Counted from the first letter of the stretch, positions 19,132 to 27,082 are shown. The stretch: 64,000 nucleotides of DNA from Candidatus Hydrogenedentota bacterium (GCA_019637335.1 JAHBVV010000026.1:1-64000), one strand, 5' to 3'. Translations and numbers: made by a program. Notes: generated by a model from the letters alone, not told the origin.

Positions 19132-19285
19132 GTTGCACTGGGGATGGTATCCACAGGTGTAACGGCGGAAGCGGCGTGCCGGTACTATCGGAGGAGCGGG
19201 CGGTACCAGCGCGCGCCGGTTTTCTGGCCCGGCCTCCCTGTGTTATGCTTCGCCTGCGTTACACTACCCAGGAAGGACGAGATTG

Positions 19286-19429
19286 TTGAAGCACCTCCAG
19301 AATCTGTCACGATTGCCCGAAAAAGCGGATGGTTTCACCACCGGAGAAAAGCTCGCGCTGGCGGCCGGCATCGCGGACGCGATCGCGGCGTTCTTTGAAA
19401 CCAAGGAGGGCGCGGGATCGGGGAGCTAG
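19286..19429 (+). CDS. Predicted RiPP precursor peptide 1 (47 aa)
   Basis: TTG-started frame of 47 residues, with AAGGA eight bases upstream. The leader MKHLQNLSRLPEKADG matches the four peptides that follow. The rest is an alanine-rich helix (ALAAGIADAIAAFF) ending ETKEGAGSGS, with the conserved last lysine at position 40. There is no Cys. It is the first of five head-to-tail paralogous short genes after the gltBD terminator. A TGTTATGCT extended -10-like site lies at about 19241. A second in-frame TTG directly precedes the start. The function is inferred from the family pattern and the downstream maturation and export genes; there is no named family that I recognise. Confidence 0.75.
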   Translation: MKHLQNLSRLPEKADGFTTGEKLALAAGIADAIAAFFETKEGAGSGS

Positions 19430-19501
19430 TTCGTTTCCGGGGCGCGCCCCGGCAGCCGGCCACCTCGAATCGAGCCTACAGACACATCCAGGGATTTTCT
19501 T

Positions 19502-19675
19502 GTGAAACATCTATCCGTAATCAGCCGGCGCCCGCGGCCCGCGCAACTGCCGAATGTGAACGTTTCCGCGATATTCTCGCTCGTCGCCAACATCCTTTTC
19601 GCGGTATCGACAGCGGTTCTCGCGAAAGAGAACTCCGATTTTCCCAATATTCCGCTGCCGGGGGGGAGCCGTTAG
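19502..19675 (+). CDS. Predicted RiPP precursor peptide 2 (57 aa)
   Basis: GTG-started frame of 57 residues behind AGGGA (7-base spacing). The leader MKHLSVISRRPRPAQ is followed by a hydrophobic stretch AIFSLVANILFAVSTAVL that could be a membrane segment or an aggregation-prone core, then AKENSD (last Lys at 42) and a proline- and glycine-rich tail FPNIPLPGGSR. No Cys. The gap to peptide 1 is 72 bp. The shared leader with a diverged core is what precursor families with one modifying system usually show. Confidence 0.75.
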   Translation: MKHLSVISRRPRPAQLPNVNVSAIFSLVANILFAVSTAVLAKENSDFPNIPLPGGSR

Positions 19676-19759
19676 GCCGCCGGCAGCCGCCGGACCGAAC
19701 CACAGGGCGGTCGCCGGAAATTGTCGCCGGTGGCTCGCCCCGCTTACCGAGGTACCATC

Positions 19760-19927
19760 ATGAAGCATCTTCAAACCCTTTCCCGCCGTCCCGAAAAAGC
19801 GCAGAGTCCCCTGTGTTCGGGATTTCAGAACGACTACCACGTGTTGCTGTGCTTCCTCCTGGAGCTGGTCCAGACCGTGTTTCCCGCGTTCGCCGACTCC
19901 AAGACGCCCACGCAGTCGGGCGCGTGA
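19760..19927 (+). CDS. Predicted RiPP precursor peptide 3 (55 aa)
   Basis: ATG-started, 55 residues, with GAGGT upstream. The leader MKHLQTLSRRPEKAQSP is the closest to the consensus. The core has a hydrophobic helix (YHVLLCFLLELVQTVFPAF) and ends ADSKTPTQSGA with the conserved last lysine at 48. It is the only one of the five with cysteines (positions 19 and 31), so cysteine chemistry is not a shared feature. The frame stays open upstream of the chosen start, but the leader match fixes it. Confidence 0.8.
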   Translation: MKHLQTLSRRPEKAQSPLCSGFQNDYHVLLCFLLELVQTVFPAFADSKTPTQSGA

Positions 19928-19939
19928 GGGCTACGCGGC

Positions 19940-20125
19940 GTGCGGCGGCTGGCCCTCATCTCGCGGCGCCCCCACCAGGCGCAGGACGTGGCCCCCGAGG
20001 TCAAGCTGACCGCCCTGCGCGACCTGGTCGCCGCGGCGGGGGCCTGGCCGGCGCTTGAAGACGGCCTGACCGCCATTATTCCGCTGTTCGTGAACAAGGA
20101 TCCGAGCAACCCGGCTCCGGAATGA
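19940..20125 (+). CDS. Predicted RiPP precursor peptide 4 (61 aa)
   Basis: GTG-started, 61 residues, only 12 bases after peptide 3 stops, with GAGG upstream inside the end of the previous gene. The leader MRRLALISRRPHQAQ keeps the LISRRPxxAQ part while KH has become RR. The core is LTALRDLVAAAGAWPAL then DGLTAIIPLFVNKDPSN, with the conserved last lysine at 53 and a proline-rich tail. No Cys. A weak hairpin and a T-run follow. Confidence 0.75.
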   Translation: MRRLALISRRPHQAQDVAPEVKLTALRDLVAAAGAWPALEDGLTAIIPLFVNKDPSNPAPE

Positions 20126-20169
20126 GTCCCGCCGGTTTTTTTGACTTGTAGCCGCCGCCGAAATATGGT
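20111..20169 (+). promoter_or_regulatory. Weak hairpin with T-run, then promoter for peptide 5
   Basis: CCGGC/GCCGG (5-bp stem) followed by seven Ts ends at 20142, and TTGACT (20141-20146), 17-bp spacer, TATGGT (20164-20169) follows directly. This would let peptide 5 be made apart from peptides 1-4. Confidence 0.45.
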
Positions 20170-20207
20170 CTAATAGGGGCGGACTGGAGAACCTACGGAG
20201 TGGACCT

Positions 20208-20333
20208 ATGAAGCACATCAAGCCGGTATCGACCCCCCGGGCCGACTCGTTTCTGGATTTCTACAACGCGCTTTTCCGCGCCTGGGTGGAATTCCGCAAC
20301 GCAAAGACGGACGAGGCGGTTTCGGGGTTCTGA
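20208..20333 (+). CDS. Predicted RiPP precursor peptide 5 (41 aa)
   Basis: ATG-started, 41 residues, with GGAG 7 bases upstream. The leader is the most diverged (MKHIKPVSTPRADSF, with KH and the serine-proline part kept). The aromatic-rich core FLDFYNALFRAWVEF is followed by RNAKTDEAVSGF, with the conserved last lysine at 33 followed by Thr as in peptide 3. No Cys. It has its own promoter-like site and is followed by a hairpin before the acyltransferase genes. Its small size and aromatic helix make it a possible special member, such as a signal or immunity peptide; that is only a guess. Confidence 0.7.
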   Translation: MKHIKPVSTPRADSFLDFYNALFRAWVEFRNAKTDEAVSGF

Positions 20334-20360
20334 GACCCCGCTGAGCCAGACGCAATCGAG

Positions 20361-20397
20361 CGGGGCCTGACGCCCGGGCGCAGGCCCCGATTGGTTT
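20361..20397 (+). terminator. Hairpin between precursor peptides and maturation genes
   Basis: CGGGGCCTG and CAGGCCCCG form a 9-bp stem with an 11-base loop, followed by ATTGGTTT. The T-tract is imperfect, so it probably acts as a partial terminator that sets a high peptide-to-enzyme ratio. Confidence 0.5.
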
Positions 20398-20440
20398 GCC
20401 TGGCGGGCGCCGCGCGCTGCGGGGATAGGGAACGGACGCG

Positions 20441-21001
20441 GTGATCACGGGCGCCTACAGCTACATTCGCGGCACGGAACACGATGACGTGGCGGCGCTC
20501 GCGGCCCTCTACCGCGACGGCGTGTTGCGCGCCGGGTTGCTGGATGGCCGCCGGGAACCGATACTGCCCACCCTGGAGGAGCTCGCGGAGTTCCTCAACC
20601 GCAAGGAATTCGCCGAAAGCGCCTTCTACACCATAGAGGACCGCACGGGCGGCATTCGCGGCTTCTGCACGCTACGCGGCCTCAATCCGGAAGCCCGCCA
20701 TTGCGAATACAGCCTGCTGTTCCTCGACGAATCCGATTATGGGGATCCCCTGGCCGGCGAGGCGACGGGCGTCATGCTGGAGCGCGCGTTTGTGCGCTGG
20801 GGCCTCCGCAAGGTGGTCGCCACGTGCCTCGAATCCGAGTCGGCGTTTAGAGCCCACCTGGCGCGGCACGGCTTCGTTTCCGCCGGCGTGCAACGCGATG
20901 TGCTCCACGCGCGGGGACGCTGGCACAATATGGAATCCCTCTACCGCGGCAATCCCCAAAGTGAACCCACGCAGATCGGCGCCCCGAACCATGCCCTATA
21001 A
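20441..21001 (+). CDS. GNAT-family acyltransferase A of the peptide cluster
   Basis: A 186-residue GNAT-fold protein. Strands and helices follow the family: IRGTEHDDVAALAALYRDGV at the N-terminus, FYTIEDRTGGIRGFCTLRGL and HCEYSLLFLDESDYGDPLAGEA (acyl-CoA-binding region, no classical QxxGxG), then the C-terminal FRAHLARHGFVSAGVQRDVLHARGRW. It starts at GTG 20441 and overlaps the next GNAT by 11 bases. In this setting it is likely to acylate the precursor peptides, perhaps at lysine or the N-terminus; some RiPP GNATs attach fatty acids. Other small-molecule targets or self-protection cannot be excluded. Confidence 0.75.
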   Translation: MITGAYSYIRGTEHDDVAALAALYRDGVLRAGLLDGRREPILPTLEELAEFLNRKEFAESAFYTIEDRTGGIRGFCTLRGLNPEARHCEYSLLFLDESDYGDPLAGEATGVMLERAFVRWGLRKVVATCLESESAFRAHLARHGFVSAGVQRDVLHARGRWHNMESLYRGNPQSEPTQIGAPNHAL

Positions 21002-21620
21002 GACCGAGACCTTTATCCGACGCGCGGAGCGGGACGATCTGGACACGGTGGTGCGCTGGATGGAAAGCCCCGATTTTCTGTACTTTCTGTATGGGGATCC
21101 GGCGCGGTCGCCCCGCCAGGTGCGCGAGAAGATCGTGGGCATGCTTGGGCGCGCCACGGGCCACACGATGCCCGGCGGGATCTACCTGATCGTCGACAGC
21201 GCGAAACACGGGCCGATCGGTTTGCTTTCGCTGCAAAACATCAGCTGGCGCAACCGTTCGTGCAGCATTGATTTGTATCTTGGCCAGGCCCAGCTCCGGA
21301 ACAAGCTCATCACCGCCAGCGCCATTTACCAGGCGCTTGAGTACTGCTTTTTCGAGCTGAATCTTCACCGGATCACGGCCTATATCTACAGCTTCAACAC
21401 GGCTTCGTGGCGGATATTCGAGAAGACTGGCGCCCGGCGCGAATTGACGCTGAAGGACCATGTGGTCCGGGATGGCCAGCCGCACGATCTGTATTGTTAT
21501 GGCCTGCTGCGGCCCGAATTCGACGCGTTGCGCGCGCGCCACGCGGTCGCGGCGGAGGGCTTCTCCCTCCAGGCGATGATCGAGATGCTCGGCGCGGTGG
21601 ATCCGGAGCCCGCGCCGTGA
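20991..21620 (+). CDS. GNAT-family acyltransferase B of the peptide cluster
   Basis: A 209-residue GNAT protein (RimJ/RimL-like layout). It begins YKTETFIRRAERDDLDTVVRWMESPDF and has IYLIVDSAKHGPIGLLSLQNISWRNRSCSIDLYLG, LRNKLITASAIYQALEYCFFELNLHRITAYI (acyl-CoA helix) and NTASWRIFEKTGARRELTLKDHVVRDGQPHDLYCYGLL, the classic C-terminal GNAT end. ATG 20991 lies inside the preceding gene, and GTGA at its end overlaps the protease gene, so all three are translationally coupled. The likely role is peptide acylation or immunity. Confidence 0.78.
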   Translation: MPYKTETFIRRAERDDLDTVVRWMESPDFLYFLYGDPARSPRQVREKIVGMLGRATGHTMPGGIYLIVDSAKHGPIGLLSLQNISWRNRSCSIDLYLGQAQLRNKLITASAIYQALEYCFFELNLHRITAYIYSFNTASWRIFEKTGARRELTLKDHVVRDGQPHDLYCYGLLRPEFDALRARHAVAAEGFSLQAMIEMLGAVDPEPAP

Positions 21621-22561
21621 CAGGGCTCTTTCTCGGCGTGCTGGCCGCATATCTCGTGCACGCGATCGCCTTGCACCGCGCCAGCGGACCGGAAACCGAG
21701 GCCGACGCCGAGACCCACCTGCACCGGGGCATGCCGGCCCCGCTCATGCCCTTTGCGCTTTTTCTCGCCGTTCATGCGCTGGAGAGCGCGCGGCTTTCCG
21801 CCTGGCTCCATTCGCCGGCCGTGCTGGCGTCCGCTGGGGCGCTGCTCATGCTGGTCATGCTCAACCAGCTTCGACGGAAGCATCTGGAATTGCATGGCGG
21901 CGGCGCGGCGTTTCGAATCTTCTACGTGGCGGGCGGCGCGCTTCAGACCGTGCTGCTGGTCCTGGCCGGGTACTACGCCTGGGAGGAGGGGATCCTCGGC
22001 CGGGGACTTTTTCACCCGCAATGGGTTATACTGGGGCTGGCGGGCGGCCATCTCATCTTCGGGATATCGCTGCTCTTCAGCCACCGTTCGCTCGAAAGCC
22101 TGCGCGATATAGGCGTCTACATCGCCGATCCGCGCCCCGTTTCGGCGTACGCGGCGCGATCGCCCCGGCAGGTCTTCGCGTGCATTGACGTGAGCCTGAT
22201 CGAGGAGTTGGTGTACCGCGTCGCCGCGCAGGGCTTGCTGCTGGCCTGGACGGGCAACGCCTGGGCCGCAATCCTGGTTACGGCGGTGGTCTTTTCGGTG
22301 GTGCACCGGCACTTCTTCTATAATCACGTGGTGGATTCCGCCGAGTTTCTGGCGTTTTCCATCCTGCTCGGCGCGCTCTACCACCTGACGGGAAGCCTTA
22401 CGCTGGTGGTGCTGGTGCACGCTGTGCGCAATCTGGAAATTGTCTATTTCGACCAATCGAAGGACCCCGCGGACGGTGCGGGCTCCGCGGAACCCGCGCC
22501 GCGCGCGGCAATTGGCGCCCGGTGGCGGGCGCCAGTTTATTCCCCCATGCATGGAAAGTGA
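21617..22561 (+). CDS. CPBP-family intramembrane protease
   Basis: A 314-residue multi-pass membrane protein of the CPBP (CAAX protease/bacteriocin-processing) group. About seven hydrophobic segments are seen. The three motifs are complete: EELVYR (196-201), FSVVH (226-230) and HAVRN near the C-terminus, so it should be an active metallo-type glutamyl protease. The start is GTG 21617, sharing GTGA with the upstream stop; longer frames have no RBS. Family members process bacteriocin precursors or give immunity (SkfC in the B. subtilis skf cluster is one). Here it may remove the MKHL-type leader or protect the producer. Confidence 0.85.
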   Translation: MTGLFLGVLAAYLVHAIALHRASGPETEADAETHLHRGMPAPLMPFALFLAVHALESARLSAWLHSPAVLASAGALLMLVMLNQLRRKHLELHGGGAAFRIFYVAGGALQTVLLVLAGYYAWEEGILGRGLFHPQWVILGLAGGHLIFGISLLFSHRSLESLRDIGVYIADPRPVSAYAARSPRQVFACIDVSLIEELVYRVAAQGLLLAWTGNAWAAILVTAVVFSVVHRHFFYNHVVDSAEFLAFSILLGALYHLTGSLTLVVLVHAVRNLEIVYFDQSKDPADGAGSAEPAPRAAIGARWRAPVYSPMHGK

Positions 22562-22569
22562 TACCTGAT

Positions 22570-23595
22570 ATGGCCGTATCTTCCGAAGCCCTGGTTCGCC
22601 TGGAGGGCCTCGAAAAAACCTTTATACTCCGCCACTTCTTCCACAAGGAAGAGGAGGACAGCAAGCGCCGCGTCTACGTCCGCAAGGAAGTGAAGGCGGT
22701 CACCGGAGTCAGCTTCGATATCCAGCCCGGCGAAATCTTCGGCCTGCTGGGCCCCAACGGCGCCGGAAAGACGACCACGGTAAAAATGCTCTCGGGCCTC
22801 GTGAAGCCGGATCGGGGCGCCGTGTACATCGACGGGCTCGAAGTCGAGCGGAACCGCCGCAGGGTCCTCGAAAAGGTCGGGGTGGTGCTCGAAGGCACGC
22901 GCACGAGCATGTGGCCGCTGACGCCGCTGGAAAACCTGGCGTACTACGGCAACCTGAAGAATGTATCGGGCGGCATCCTCAAGGAGCGATCCCACCAGCT
23001 CCTGGATTTCATCGGCCTGCGCGAAAAGAAACACACGCAGGTGCGCCACCTCTCGCGCGGCCAGAAGCAGAAGCTGGCGATCTGCATTGCGATGATCGCG
23101 GATCCAAAGGTGCTGCTGTTGGACGAGCCCACGACCGGGCTTGACGTGCAGAGCGCGCGCGCCATCAAGGACAAAATCATTGAAATGACGCGGGAACATG
23201 GCAAGAGTGTTCTTGTGACCACGCACGATATGCACGTGGCGCAGGAGCTCTGCGATCACATTGGCATCATCGACAGGGGCGGGCTGGTGGCCTGCAAGCC
23301 GACGGCGGAACTGATCGGCCTGTTTTCCGATCAGGTCTACGTCTTCCGGACCGATCGCGAAGTCGATACGGCCGCCTTCGAGGCGCTACCCGGCGTCTTG
23401 AGCGCGGTAACGGAACAGTCGGCCGATGGGCCGCTGCTGGTGGTGAACATCACCCCGGAACCGGCGGCCCGATCCGAGGCGCTCTACGGGGTGATGGCGG
23501 GCCTGCGCGATGCGGGCCACGAGCTCTGGAGCATTTCCCAGCGCCAGCAGAATCTGGAGAGCGTGTTCCTCCAGCTTACAACGAGCAGCATATAA
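22570..23595 (+). CDS. ABC transporter ATP-binding protein of the peptide cluster
   Basis: A 341-residue ATPase. Walker A GPNGAGKTTT, Q-loop region VLEGTRTSMWPLTPLENL, signature LSRGQKQKLAICIAM, Walker B LLLDEPTTGLD and the switch histidine TTHDMH are all present; the C-terminal 90 residues form the DUF4162-like tail common in drug and bacteriocin exporters (EcsA/BcrA/DrrA type). The long charged insert after the first strand (HKEEEDSKRRVYVRKEVK) is typical of this subgroup. ATG 22570 is chosen over an upstream in-frame ATG inside the protease gene. It pairs with the permease that follows for export or self-immunity. Confidence 0.93.
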   Translation: MAVSSEALVRLEGLEKTFILRHFFHKEEEDSKRRVYVRKEVKAVTGVSFDIQPGEIFGLLGPNGAGKTTTVKMLSGLVKPDRGAVYIDGLEVERNRRRVLEKVGVVLEGTRTSMWPLTPLENLAYYGNLKNVSGGILKERSHQLLDFIGLREKKHTQVRHLSRGQKQKLAICIAMIADPKVLLLDEPTTGLDVQSARAIKDKIIEMTREHGKSVLVTTHDMHVAQELCDHIGIIDRGGLVACKPTAELIGLFSDQVYVFRTDREVDTAAFEALPGVLSAVTEQSADGPLLVVNITPEPAARSEALYGVMAGLRDAGHELWSISQRQQNLESVFLQLTTSSI

Positions 23596-23630
23596 CCTGC
23601 GGCCGCGCCCGCGGAGGAGCGTTTGAGTTT

Positions 23631-24479
23631 ATGAGTTTCTTTCTCGTCATGAAAGCCGAAATCGTGCGCGCGCTCATCGTCATGCGCCGCTACTGGTTCC
23701 GCACGGTGACCGGCATGATTATGGGGTACGGCATGCTGCTGGTGTTGATCATGGGGTTCATGGTCAGCCGTGACGAAGTGACAAGCGCCATGGACGGGCG
23801 TTTCGGCGACGCGGGCCAGGCGACGAATTTCGTCCTGGGATTCATCATTGGCATGTTCGCGTTCGGCATCGTGGGCATGTTTACCCAGGGCATCCAGAGC
23901 ATGGCCGGGACCGGCGTGCTGGAGCAGCTCTGCCTCAGCCCGCACGGGCTCGTGACCAACTTTCTCGCGCGCACCATCGTCACGGCGGTCACCTCGATCT
24001 TCTCTTCGTCGCTCATGGTCTGGATGGTCACCGCCACGGTGGGCGGGACGCTGCACTTCGATCCGGTTGCGGTGCCGATTCTGCTCTGCCTTACCTTCGT
24101 AAATCTGCTCGGATTCGGATTCATGATGGGCGGGCTCGTGCTGGTCTTCAAGCAGGTGGGGCAGGTCGCCATTCTCATTCGCATGGGCCTGTTCGCCCTT
24201 GCGATTTTCGCCACCGAGGAGATGCTGAACCGGGGCTTCATCATGGCGGCCTTCATGCACATACTGCCGATTACCGACGCCGCCATCCTGCTCAAGTGGA
24301 CGCTTATCTCCAACCAGGGCATCGTGGGTGACAATTTCGAGAACTACCGCCCGGTATTGCAGCACCCGTCGATGTTCTTTCTGATTGTCAATTGCGCGGT
24401 CTGGTTCGGGCTTGGCGTGGCCGTATTCCGCTTTATGGAAACGTGGAGCCGCGCGAAGGGTACGCTGGGGACCTATTGA
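23631..24479 (+). CDS. ABC-2 type permease of the peptide cluster
   Basis: A 282-residue integral membrane protein with about six transmembrane segments (GMLLVLIMGFM, VLGFIIGMFAFGIVGMF, TIVTAVTSIFSSSLMVWMV, ILLCLTFVNLLGFGFMMGG, LIRMGLFALAIFA, IVNCAVWFGLGVAVF) and the ABC-2 feature MAGTGVLEQLCLSPHG after segment two. Its stop overlaps the next start (TGATG). Together with the ATPase it forms an exporter, probably of the finished peptides. Confidence 0.9.
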   Translation: MSFFLVMKAEIVRALIVMRRYWFRTVTGMIMGYGMLLVLIMGFMVSRDEVTSAMDGRFGDAGQATNFVLGFIIGMFAFGIVGMFTQGIQSMAGTGVLEQLCLSPHGLVTNFLARTIVTAVTSIFSSSLMVWMVTATVGGTLHFDPVAVPILLCLTFVNLLGFGFMMGGLVLVFKQVGQVAILIRMGLFALAIFATEEMLNRGFIMAAFMHILPITDAAILLKWTLISNQGIVGDNFENYRPVLQHPSMFFLIVNCAVWFGLGVAVFRFMETWSRAKGTLGTY

Positions 24480-26296
24480 TGGGCGCGCCGGCATTACATC
24501 GCTTCGAGCAGGGCGGCAAGCGTTTCGTGGTGGACACGGAGACCTGCTTCTGTTTCGAGTGCGATGCGGTGTCGTGGGCCGTGCTCGAACACTATCCCGA
24601 AACGCCGGTGAACCGCATCGCGCACCTGGTCGGGCAGGATCACCCCCGCCGCGAGGTGGAGGAGGTGATAGGCGAACTCGAATGGCTCCGATCCACGAAA
24701 GCGATCCTGCCGCGGCGAAGCCCCGCGGAGCTGCTCAAGCAATTCGAGGTGGCGCGCGCCCTGCAACGGGTGGACGTCTGGACGGATGGTGACTGCGTGG
24801 TCCTCGAGGGGGCGATGGCGTTGCTTCTCGGGCGCTCGCGCGACCGGGATGCGATCGCGCTCCACATCCATCCCGGCGGGCCGGCCTCGCGGCTGCTGGA
24901 ATCGGTCGATGCCGCCTTCCGCAACGCGCGGCTCGCGGGAAAATCGCTCGAAATCGTCCTGGAGGCGCCCGTATCGCTGTCCGGCCGCGATGCGCGCGCC
25001 TTGGGCCCGCACGGGCTGTCCCTCGCCTGGAGCGTCGCGCCGGACGCGCCCGCGGACGCCCTGCGCGCTTTTGACGCGGCGCTGGGAAAGGGCCTCTCGG
25101 GGCTGGCCGGCGTCCTGGAGGGCGCCACGGCCATCCTGACCCCCGCGTCGGGCGCGTTCCGGGATGCCGTCGTTCATCTGCACGGCGCGGGCTTCACGCG
25201 GATCGAAATAGATCTGTCGGCGGCCTATCAGCGCGATCCCGGCCTGGACCCGGCCGCGGTGCTGGAGGGGATGCGGGCGGCGGCGGTCTACTACGCGCAG
25301 CAATTGCTCGCGGGAAAGCATTTTCGTCTGGAGCCGATCGCGGCCACCTTTCACCAGATCTACGAAGGCGCGCCGCGCCCGCGATCCGACGCCAGCGGGA
25401 CACACGAGCTCGCGATCGATGCGCGGGGTGAGCTCTACCCCTCGCGCTATTTCGCCGGACAGGACGCCTTCCGGCTCGGGAATCTGGCGGACGGGCGAAT
25501 CGACGAGGACCGGCGGGCGCCGTTCGACGATCTCGGCGCCATCAGCACATCGCCGTGTAATACCTGCTGGGCGCGGAACCTGTGCGGGGGCGGCCACAGC
25601 GCCATCCACGCGGCGCGCACCGGCGCCATCCGCACCCCGGATCCGGCCTGGTGCGATCGCCAGCGGGACTGGTTCGCGTCGGCGATCGCCGCGTTCAACC
25701 TCCTTTCGTCCCAGGGGGTTAACTTCGACCGGATATACCAGTCCGTACAGCCCGCTGGCCGCCTCTCGCTCTGGCAGGCGGCGAAAGCGGCGATGACGCT
25801 GAAGGCGGGCGTCCGGCCCATTGCCGAGGCGGACGCGCCCCTGCTTGCGCGCTGGGAGAACTGGAGCGAATCGGTCTACTTTCTGGGCAACGAATACGGG
25901 ACCTTCCTCGCGACCCGGTACGACCGCGAAATGGACTCGTTGCACCCACGCGGCATCGAGCAGGAGCTGGTCATTATCTCGCGCCGCGGCGATCCGATTG
26001 GGTTGCTGAAGATCCGGCCCGAACCCCGCCTGCAACTGGCGCGCGTGTGGATTTACCTGCGCAACCCACAGCAGTATGCCGATCCCGGCCTGCGGCGGAG
26101 CTTCCGGCACATTCTCGGCGAGGCGGCGCGCCATGACGCCTTCTCCACGCTCGTTGCGGCGGCCGGACCGGGGGATCCGGGCCTCGGCGACTTTCTTCTG
26201 GCGTCGGGTTTCACCCACGCCGGGCGCGAGCGGGCCGCGCTTTTCCTGCACGACGCCTACCACGACATCGACATGTACAGCGTGCGCCTCTCCTGA
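24479..26296 (+). CDS. Pseudo-radical-SAM/SPASM protein fused to a GNAT domain
   Basis: A 605-residue protein with three parts. Residues 5-75 (HRFEQGGKRFVVDTETCFCF, then a winged-helix-like stretch) resemble the peptide-recognition N-terminus of SPASM peptide maturases. Residues 80-350 look like a radical SAM barrel, but where CxxxCxxC is expected there is only VDVWTDGDCVVLEG, so a catalytic 4Fe-4S cluster cannot form. A SPASM-type cluster follows: Cys360, Cys363, Cys369 (CNTCWARNLCGGG) and Cys392, while the usual YPC is YPS. Residues about 437-605 are a GNAT domain. ATG overlaps the permease stop by one base. It is probably a peptide-binding scaffold that presents leaders to acyltransferases. 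Confidence 0.75.
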   Translation: MGAPALHRFEQGGKRFVVDTETCFCFECDAVSWAVLEHYPETPVNRIAHLVGQDHPRREVEEVIGELEWLRSTKAILPRRSPAELLKQFEVARALQRVDVWTDGDCVVLEGAMALLLGRSRDRDAIALHIHPGGPASRLLESVDAAFRNARLAGKSLEIVLEAPVSLSGRDARALGPHGLSLAWSVAPDAPADALRAFDAALGKGLSGLAGVLEGATAILTPASGAFRDAVVHLHGAGFTRIEIDLSAAYQRDPGLDPAAVLEGMRAAAVYYAQQLLAGKHFRLEPIAATFHQIYEGAPRPRSDASGTHELAIDARGELYPSRYFAGQDAFRLGNLADGRIDEDRRAPFDDLGAISTSPCNTCWARNLCGGGHSAIHAARTGAIRTPDPAWCDRQRDWFASAIAAFNLLSSQGVNFDRIYQSVQPAGRLSLWQAAKAAMTLKAGVRPIAEADAPLLARWENWSESVYFLGNEYGTFLATRYDREMDSLHPRGIEQELVIISRRGDPIGLLKIRPEPRLQLARVWIYLRNPQQYADPGLRRSFRHILGEAARHDAFSTLVAAAGPGDPGLGDFLLASGFTHAGRERAALFLHDAYHDIDMYSVRLS

Positions 26297-26859: not shown

Positions 26860-26935
26860 GCGTGTTGGAGCGCCGGCATCTCTGCCGGCAAGGTCCGGGA
26901 TTCGCCGCAGGCGAAATGCCAGCGCTCCAACACGC
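26860..26935. repeat. 76-bp REP-like element with long terminal stem
   Basis: GCGTGTTGGAGCGCCGGCAT at 26860-26879 pairs with ATGCCAGCGCTCCAACACGC at 26916-26935 (one mismatch in 20). The interior holds GCCGGCA/TGCCGGC and TTCGCC-GCA-GGCGAA hairpins, then TTTTCT follows. The rest of the 325-bp gap between the regulator and the YncE gene holds no gene I can support. Confidence 0.85.
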
Positions 26936-27082
26936 GCCCTTTTCTAAAATTTCAGGTGGTTCGTATGGCGCTCGGCTCGAACTGGAAGTATAAATGCGAT
27001 TGACCGGCGTGCGGGTGGGCCTTGGCGCGTGTCTTTCCCATCGTGTGCTATAGTGGGCATCGCACATGTGGAGGGAAGAACC

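Follow-up and report, generated by a model that had tools for sequence, protein, structure and literature searches.

The skf locus of Bacillus joins a peptide gene to genes for a SPASM protein, a CPBP protein and an ABC transporter; SkfB has radical SAM activity, a single precursor is present and GNATs are missing. Prochlorosin-type systems have many dispersed precursors of one leader type that are served by one maturation locus. QhpD, the maturase of quinohemoprotein amine dehydrogenase, is an active radical SAM enzyme acting on a protein subunit. GNAT-fold proteins together with lysine-bearing precursors are known from the selidamides and nostolysamides, and for the latter lysine acylation is described (PMC13060382). 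SCIFF peptides of the ranthipeptide type (CteA/CteB; Tte1186) are widespread in Clostridia, and this distribution has been used to argue against an antimicrobial role (PMC8326336). Precursors beside true SCIFF maturases had the leader start MKHIK[VI]LSRNRLQ in common.

The locus analysed here (19286-26296) lies in a window of 64,000 nt, the whole stretch of DNA under analysis, from a member of Candidatus Hydrogenedentota, an uncultured phylum of bacteria. All its genes are on the plus strand and largely coupled: five short ORFs are followed by GNAT1, GNAT2, a CPBP protease, an ABC ATPase, an ABC permease and a SPASM protein. Precursor 1 (19286..19429, class A; MKHLQNLSRLPEKADGFTTGEKLALAAGIADAIAAFFETKEGAGSGS) has a TTG start with an alternative TTG at 19283, the ribosome site GGAAGGA and orthologues in two related genomes (G001, G002). 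Precursor 2 (19502..19675, class A-like) starts with GTG and carries VSTAVLAKENSDFPNIPLPGGSR in its core, precursor 3 (19760..19927, class B, two conserved Cys) starts with ATG, and precursor 4 (19940..20125, class C, PEVKLT...PLFVNKDPSNP) with GTG. The last ORF before GNAT1, precursor 5 (20208..20333, class E, ATG start), is the most conserved. GNAT1 (20441..21001; Pfam PF13302, E=1.4e-8) overlaps by 11 nt with GNAT2 (20991..21620; PF13302, E=3e-17), whose start lies inside GNAT1. The CPBP protease gene (21617..22561; PF02517, E=2.9e-12) starts at the GNAT2 stop in a GTGA overlap at 21617, followed by a DrrA-like exporter ATPase (22570..23595) and an ABC-2 type permease (23631..24479), the latter matching PF12698 weakly and below the cut-off while being conserved in an alignment of 40 sequences. 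An ATGA overlap at 24479 joins the permease stop to the start of the SPASM gene (24479..26296). A repeat-like inverted element (TTGGAGCG...CGCTCCAA) was observed at 26860-26940 of the window, 3' of a response regulator gene.

The five consecutive short genes with a common leader and divergent cores were confirmed at their positions. Their leaders are, in order, MKHLQNLSRLPEKAD, MKHLSVISRRPRPAQ, MKHLQTLSRRPEKAQ, MRRLALISRRPHQAQ and MKHIKPVSTPRADSF. The original prediction had assigned the leader MKHLxxLSRRPxxAQ to all five; precursors 1-3 share MKHL..(S)R.PxxA(Q/D), but precursors 4 (MRRLALISRRPHQAQ) and 5 (MKHIKPVSTPRADSF) diverge further, and the family tag of the short ORFs reads MKHhxxhSRxPxxAQ. 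In 1.25 Mb of related loci, a leader matrix found 151 forward against 1 reverse-strand match at a score of at least 10, a contrast that is not independent, the matrix having been seeded from 31 such peptides and the loci being partly redundant. Codon changes in the short ORFs pile up at third positions, and dN is well below dS where dS could be computed. The cores sort into orthologous classes A, B (two Cys), C and E, which recur in the same order across loci, and sequence comparison indicates that they are under purifying selection. Beyond the matrix, the third-position bias, the low dN, the orthologous cores and a whole-genome leader profile confirm, at the level of sequence, that the short frames are genes. 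This profile of 18 residues (A3) was run over whole genomes and matched nine places in the source genome at E<=1, against none or one in each of five unrelated genomes; one match in the latter was a Tepidibacillus SCIFF peptide (weak, E=0.17). At the same threshold, each of nine operon-bearing genomes had four to ten matches and G018 had two; five rows of the profile derive from peptides encoded apart from an operon (one of G000, two of G006, two of G009), so that those matches arise by construction, which does not apply to the dispersed matches in G010, G019, G020, G022, G029 and G031 or to three of the four in G000. The four relatives without the operon SPASM gene gave no credible match, zero in G023, G028 and G035 and one with E=0.95 in G032. 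The leader search thus recovered tagged peptides in operon-bearing genomes, and a loss of the short frames where the GNAT and SPASM genes stay was tested for and did not occur. In Pfam, NCBIfam and PADLOC no credible family was found for the five peptides. An assignment as defence system was rejected for want of a PADLOC match.

No more than 18 of 130 cores contained cysteine; strong hydrophobicity was absent from roughly half of all cores, and many had no hydrophobic stretch of membrane length. A lysine after residue 18 occurred in 130 of 131 tagged peptides, at a median distance of 6 residues from the C-terminus, and N, E and P were enriched after it. Within the last 15 residues a lysine was found in 117 of 131 peptides (shuffled sequences: mean 86, maximum 102), a contrast inflated by the mutual relatedness of the 131 peptides, for which the shuffle overstates independence. 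The lysine contexts of the window precursors are ETKEG, LAKEN, DSKTP, VNKDP and NAKTD, and the feature recurs in unrelated classes.

The source genome has five precursors at the operon and at least four tagged peptides elsewhere; dispersed precursors were located by profile search and their counts are not exhaustive. These peptides recur with conserved cores and conserved neighbours. Class G (NFQ..KDFL...FIKTS) has rsfS, a Ser/Thr kinase and an ABC-F gene as neighbours in G000 and G020; more members occur in G022, G041, G016 and G053. Class H, ending in FY.KTP, adjoins argS and/or a PPIC rotamase and a T2SSF gene in G000, G019 and G022, and class F is present in G000, G006 and G022. In G029 and G019 a set of three peptides comes after genes for an ECF sigma factor and a likely anti-sigma protein; two of the three were detected in G010. 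In genomes of family f5, three contigs (L239:1828-5277, L241:1770-5243, L251:1317-4095) carry an ECF sigma gene and a conserved likely anti-sigma gene followed by two to three tagged peptides, possibly a signalling cassette. Three family f11 genomes (G031, G039, G057; L289-L291) have no precursors next to the operon; their A-B-C-E-E array is located, in full or for the most part, on another contig with no operon genes nearby, class B not being detected in G039. The precursors probably act in trans.

The closest solved structure to the SPASM-GNAT protein was CteB, the SCIFF maturase (5wgg), matched by profile with E=1.7e-43 over RRE, barrel and SPASM domain; CteB was also the top fold match of the predicted structure (mean pLDDT 88.9). 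The radical SAM motif CxxxCxxC, already reported missing in the original prediction, was found in 0 of 40 SPASM-GNAT sequences; the GGEP region of CteB had no conserved counterpart in the alignment and the SAM motif regions were not conserved. In the CxCxxC of the RRE-like domain C25 and C28 are invariant and C23 is kept at 90 %. The SPASM domain scored above the cut-off of TIGR04085 and retains CxxCx5C and a distal C (C360, C363, C369 and C392, all invariant), the other ligand positions being lost; we take the retained cysteines to be the ligands of one auxiliary cluster and the lost positions to be those of the other. Its match to NCBIfam TIGR03906 (QhpD) was partial and far below the curated cut-off. 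A GNAT domain forms the C-terminus, as found by profile search (RimL-type chains) and by fold. On sequence and model, the protein is thus best described as a radical-SAM-dead CteB homologue fused to a GNAT domain. Two GNATs had been predicted for the locus, which is correct for the separate genes; the GNAT domains number three, the third being fused to the SPASM protein.

The GxG of the CoA pyrophosphate loop was missing in 33 of 35 GNAT1, 34 of 36 GNAT2 and 39 of 40 SPASM GNAT sequences, and the strict Q/RxxGxG/A in every sequence examined of the three; an ordinary GNAT of the same genome retains WGQG in its CoA loop. GNAT2 has kept the SpeG/RimL fold (AF2 model and Foldseek search) and a strongly conserved SWRNRxC. 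Loss of the CoA loop alone is no proof of lost catalysis, since GNATs with altered loops can still be enzymes. The GNAT domains and the SPASM barrel do not appear to be active in the usual way, because all four candidate modifying domains lack their catalytic signatures; an intact signature was found in none of them, and the proposal that the GNATs and the SPASM protein chemically modify the peptides was not supported. The predicted CPBP protease with complete motifs and the ABC exporter downstream of the GNATs were verified: EExxxR, FxxxH and H are invariant among 28 protease sequences, and Walker A, signature and Walker B are intact in the ATPase of the window and invariant or nearly so in the alignment. 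Protease and ATPase, the only operon parts with intact catalytic signatures, therefore look active.

Homology presents the SCIFF/CteB lineage as the real relative, from which the system appears to be derived. They have in common a homologous RRE-barrel-SPASM maturase, an MKHI-type leader start and a wide conservation within one large taxon. The Hydrogenedentota maturase, however, lacks the radical SAM motif, the cores lack six Cys in about 45 residues, and fused and separate GNATs, a CPBP protease and many dispersed precursor classes are added; without the radical SAM motif and a Cys-rich core, membership among the SCIFF/ranthipeptides was rejected. Short peptides with an MKHIKK leader were seen just 3' of SPASM maturases on two Bdellovibrionales contigs and one contig labelled "bacterium" (L136:2993, L137:10506, L142:2722) and are possibly undescribed SCIFF-like precursors. 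A skf-type layout had been proposed, and the part list of peptide, SPASM protein, CPBP protein and ABC transporter is similar, but the comparison is loose: the SPASM protein is radical-SAM-dead here, precursors are many and GNATs are present. A Skf-type sactipeptide was rejected on the absent radical SAM motif (0/40). The likeness to QhpD is confined to the partial TIGR03906 match of the SPASM part, whereas QhpD is active on a protein subunit. As in prochlorosin-type systems, dispersed precursors with a common leader are served by one maturation locus, but the locus has no lanthionine synthetase and the cores are conserved orthologues, not diversified. GNAT-fold proteins and lysine-bearing precursors recall the selidamides and nostolysamides; in contrast, the Hydrogenedentota system lacks the CoA loop, has another leader and has no lanthionine or other partner enzymes. 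A GNAT-acylated RiPP of the selidamide type was rejected, the CoA loop R/QxxGxG/A not being found. The view that no described class combines these parts was borne out by a search of the open-access literature, in which no description of such a system was found.

The SPASM protein was found in 54 of 60 relatives and by profile in 62 of 68 Hydrogenedentota genomes (a GNAT-only match in G009 left out), usually as a single copy. Nearly all of the 40 loci retained the order GNAT1-GNAT2-CPBP-ABCa-ABCp-SPASM, within the limits of their contigs. In G009, nominally 99 % complete, GNAT1 to ABCp are kept (L198, G009:C288), the contig ends inside the permease and two precursors lie on another contig; the SPASM gene was not found elsewhere, and its absence and assembly loss are indistinguishable. 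Several f5 genomes (L050, L052, L054, L060) have a fourth GNAT-fold gene, GNAT2-like, between GNAT1 and GNAT2. Since some genomes from each of at least three families (f1, f5, f11) have gltD upstream of the operon, this location is suggested as the ancestral position. In the tree of the SPASM protein family f5 stays together, the backbone is weak and f1, f10 and f11 do not form resolved clades, so that the tree suggests vertical descent without proving it. Outside the phylum, a scan of the contig collection yielded only generic SPASM matches and radical SAM/SPASM proteins, almost all of the latter carrying CxxxCxxC. On L129, L141, L145 and perhaps L132 (Aminicenantes, Gemmatimonadota, Latescibacterota) a canonical radical SAM/SPASM protein adjoins a SPASM ORF without CxxxCxxC, which suggests that radical-SAM-dead SPASM partners arose outside Hydrogenedentota too.

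The coupling of tandem leader/core precursors to a maturation and export operon was supported, and with a shared leader and variable cores the system contains a putative leader-binding domain, the RRE assigned by homology to CteB and the binding predicted. With moderate confidence, the locus is regarded as the processing and export site of a leader-tagged small-protein family throughout Candidatus Hydrogenedentota, and leader-guided, trans-acting processing and export is considered quite likely. The N-terminal, RRE-like domain of the SPASM-GNAT protein would bind the leader tag; the protein itself would descend from a SCIFF maturase that had lost its radical SAM chemistry. The GNAT-fold proteins may hold the segment around the C-terminal-side lysine or, less likely, acylate it without ordinary binding of acetyl-CoA. 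From homology and gene linkage, the CPBP membrane protease would clip the leader and the ABC-2 transporter export the core; the transporter could also serve self-protection or another substrate. Within this scheme, capture without covalent change is a tentative choice, short of an even chance, and modification of the lysine through unusual GNAT chemistry a possibility held with still more reserve. Since strong hydrophobicity is missing from roughly half of the cores, a single fate for all peptides is not certain.

Several other readings have to be weighed against leader-guided processing and export. The short ORFs are indeed short, and some start with TTG or GTG behind a weak ribosome site, but a negligible probability remains that they are not genes, against the leader matrix, the orthologous core classes, the A3 specificity, the low dN and the arrays on separate contigs. 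A genuine modifying RiPP pathway, with a GNAT acylating the lysine from a non-CoA donor (aminoacyl-tRNA, acyl-carrier protein) or catalysis at the CxCxxC/SPASM metal sites, could account for the strong conservation of SWRNRxC in GNAT2 and of the cysteine sets, for the lysine enrichment of the cores and for the GNAT fold kept in both models; we regard it as possible but rather doubtful, as all three GNAT domains have lost the CoA loop and the operon has no acyl-carrier or aminoacylation gene. It is unlikely, though seriously to be considered, that the tag directs structural small proteins to the membrane or into secretion, with the operon as a dedicated sorting system instead of a RiPP pathway: many peptides have a basic N-terminus followed by a hydrophobic stretch, the genes are dispersed and protease and transporter are intact, but the SPASM-GNAT protein descends from peptide maturases, the leader resembles those of SCIFF peptides and membrane-length stretches are lacking in many cores. 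CPBP proteins and ABC-2 transporters are frequent companions of bacteriocins; together with several small, partly hydrophobic peptides this would fit an antimicrobial cluster with self-protection by these two proteins. This reading is improbable, given a near-universal, mostly single-copy operon, orthologous cores under purifying selection and precursors scattered beside housekeeping genes; universality and purifying selection disfavour an antimicrobial role here, in line with the published argument on the SCIFF peptides of Clostridia (PMC8326336).

Cores that are orthologous across the phylum and kept by purifying selection point to signalling or a part in the cell envelope, not to warfare, as the most likely role of the products of leader-guided processing and export. 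The findings point to an undescribed and probably everyday pathway, with a substantial chance of its being a separate kind. Slightly below an even chance is given to the full picture of a core-physiology tagging and export pathway for small proteins of the whole phylum, in which an ancient radical SAM maturase would have become a non-radical peptide receptor with a GNAT domain, serving many unlinked peptides of one leader, with a possibly unprecedented GNAT-fold modification at the common lysine. The leader profile offers a means to find small proteins that gene callers may miss. Hydrogenedentota would possess a phylum-wide RiPP-like pathway in which all apparent modification enzymes are motif-less, with no described physiology and with precursors beside housekeeping and sigma-factor genes; it lets the reuse of leader recognition without its chemistry be examined, and likewise whether the peptides act as signals or in the envelope.
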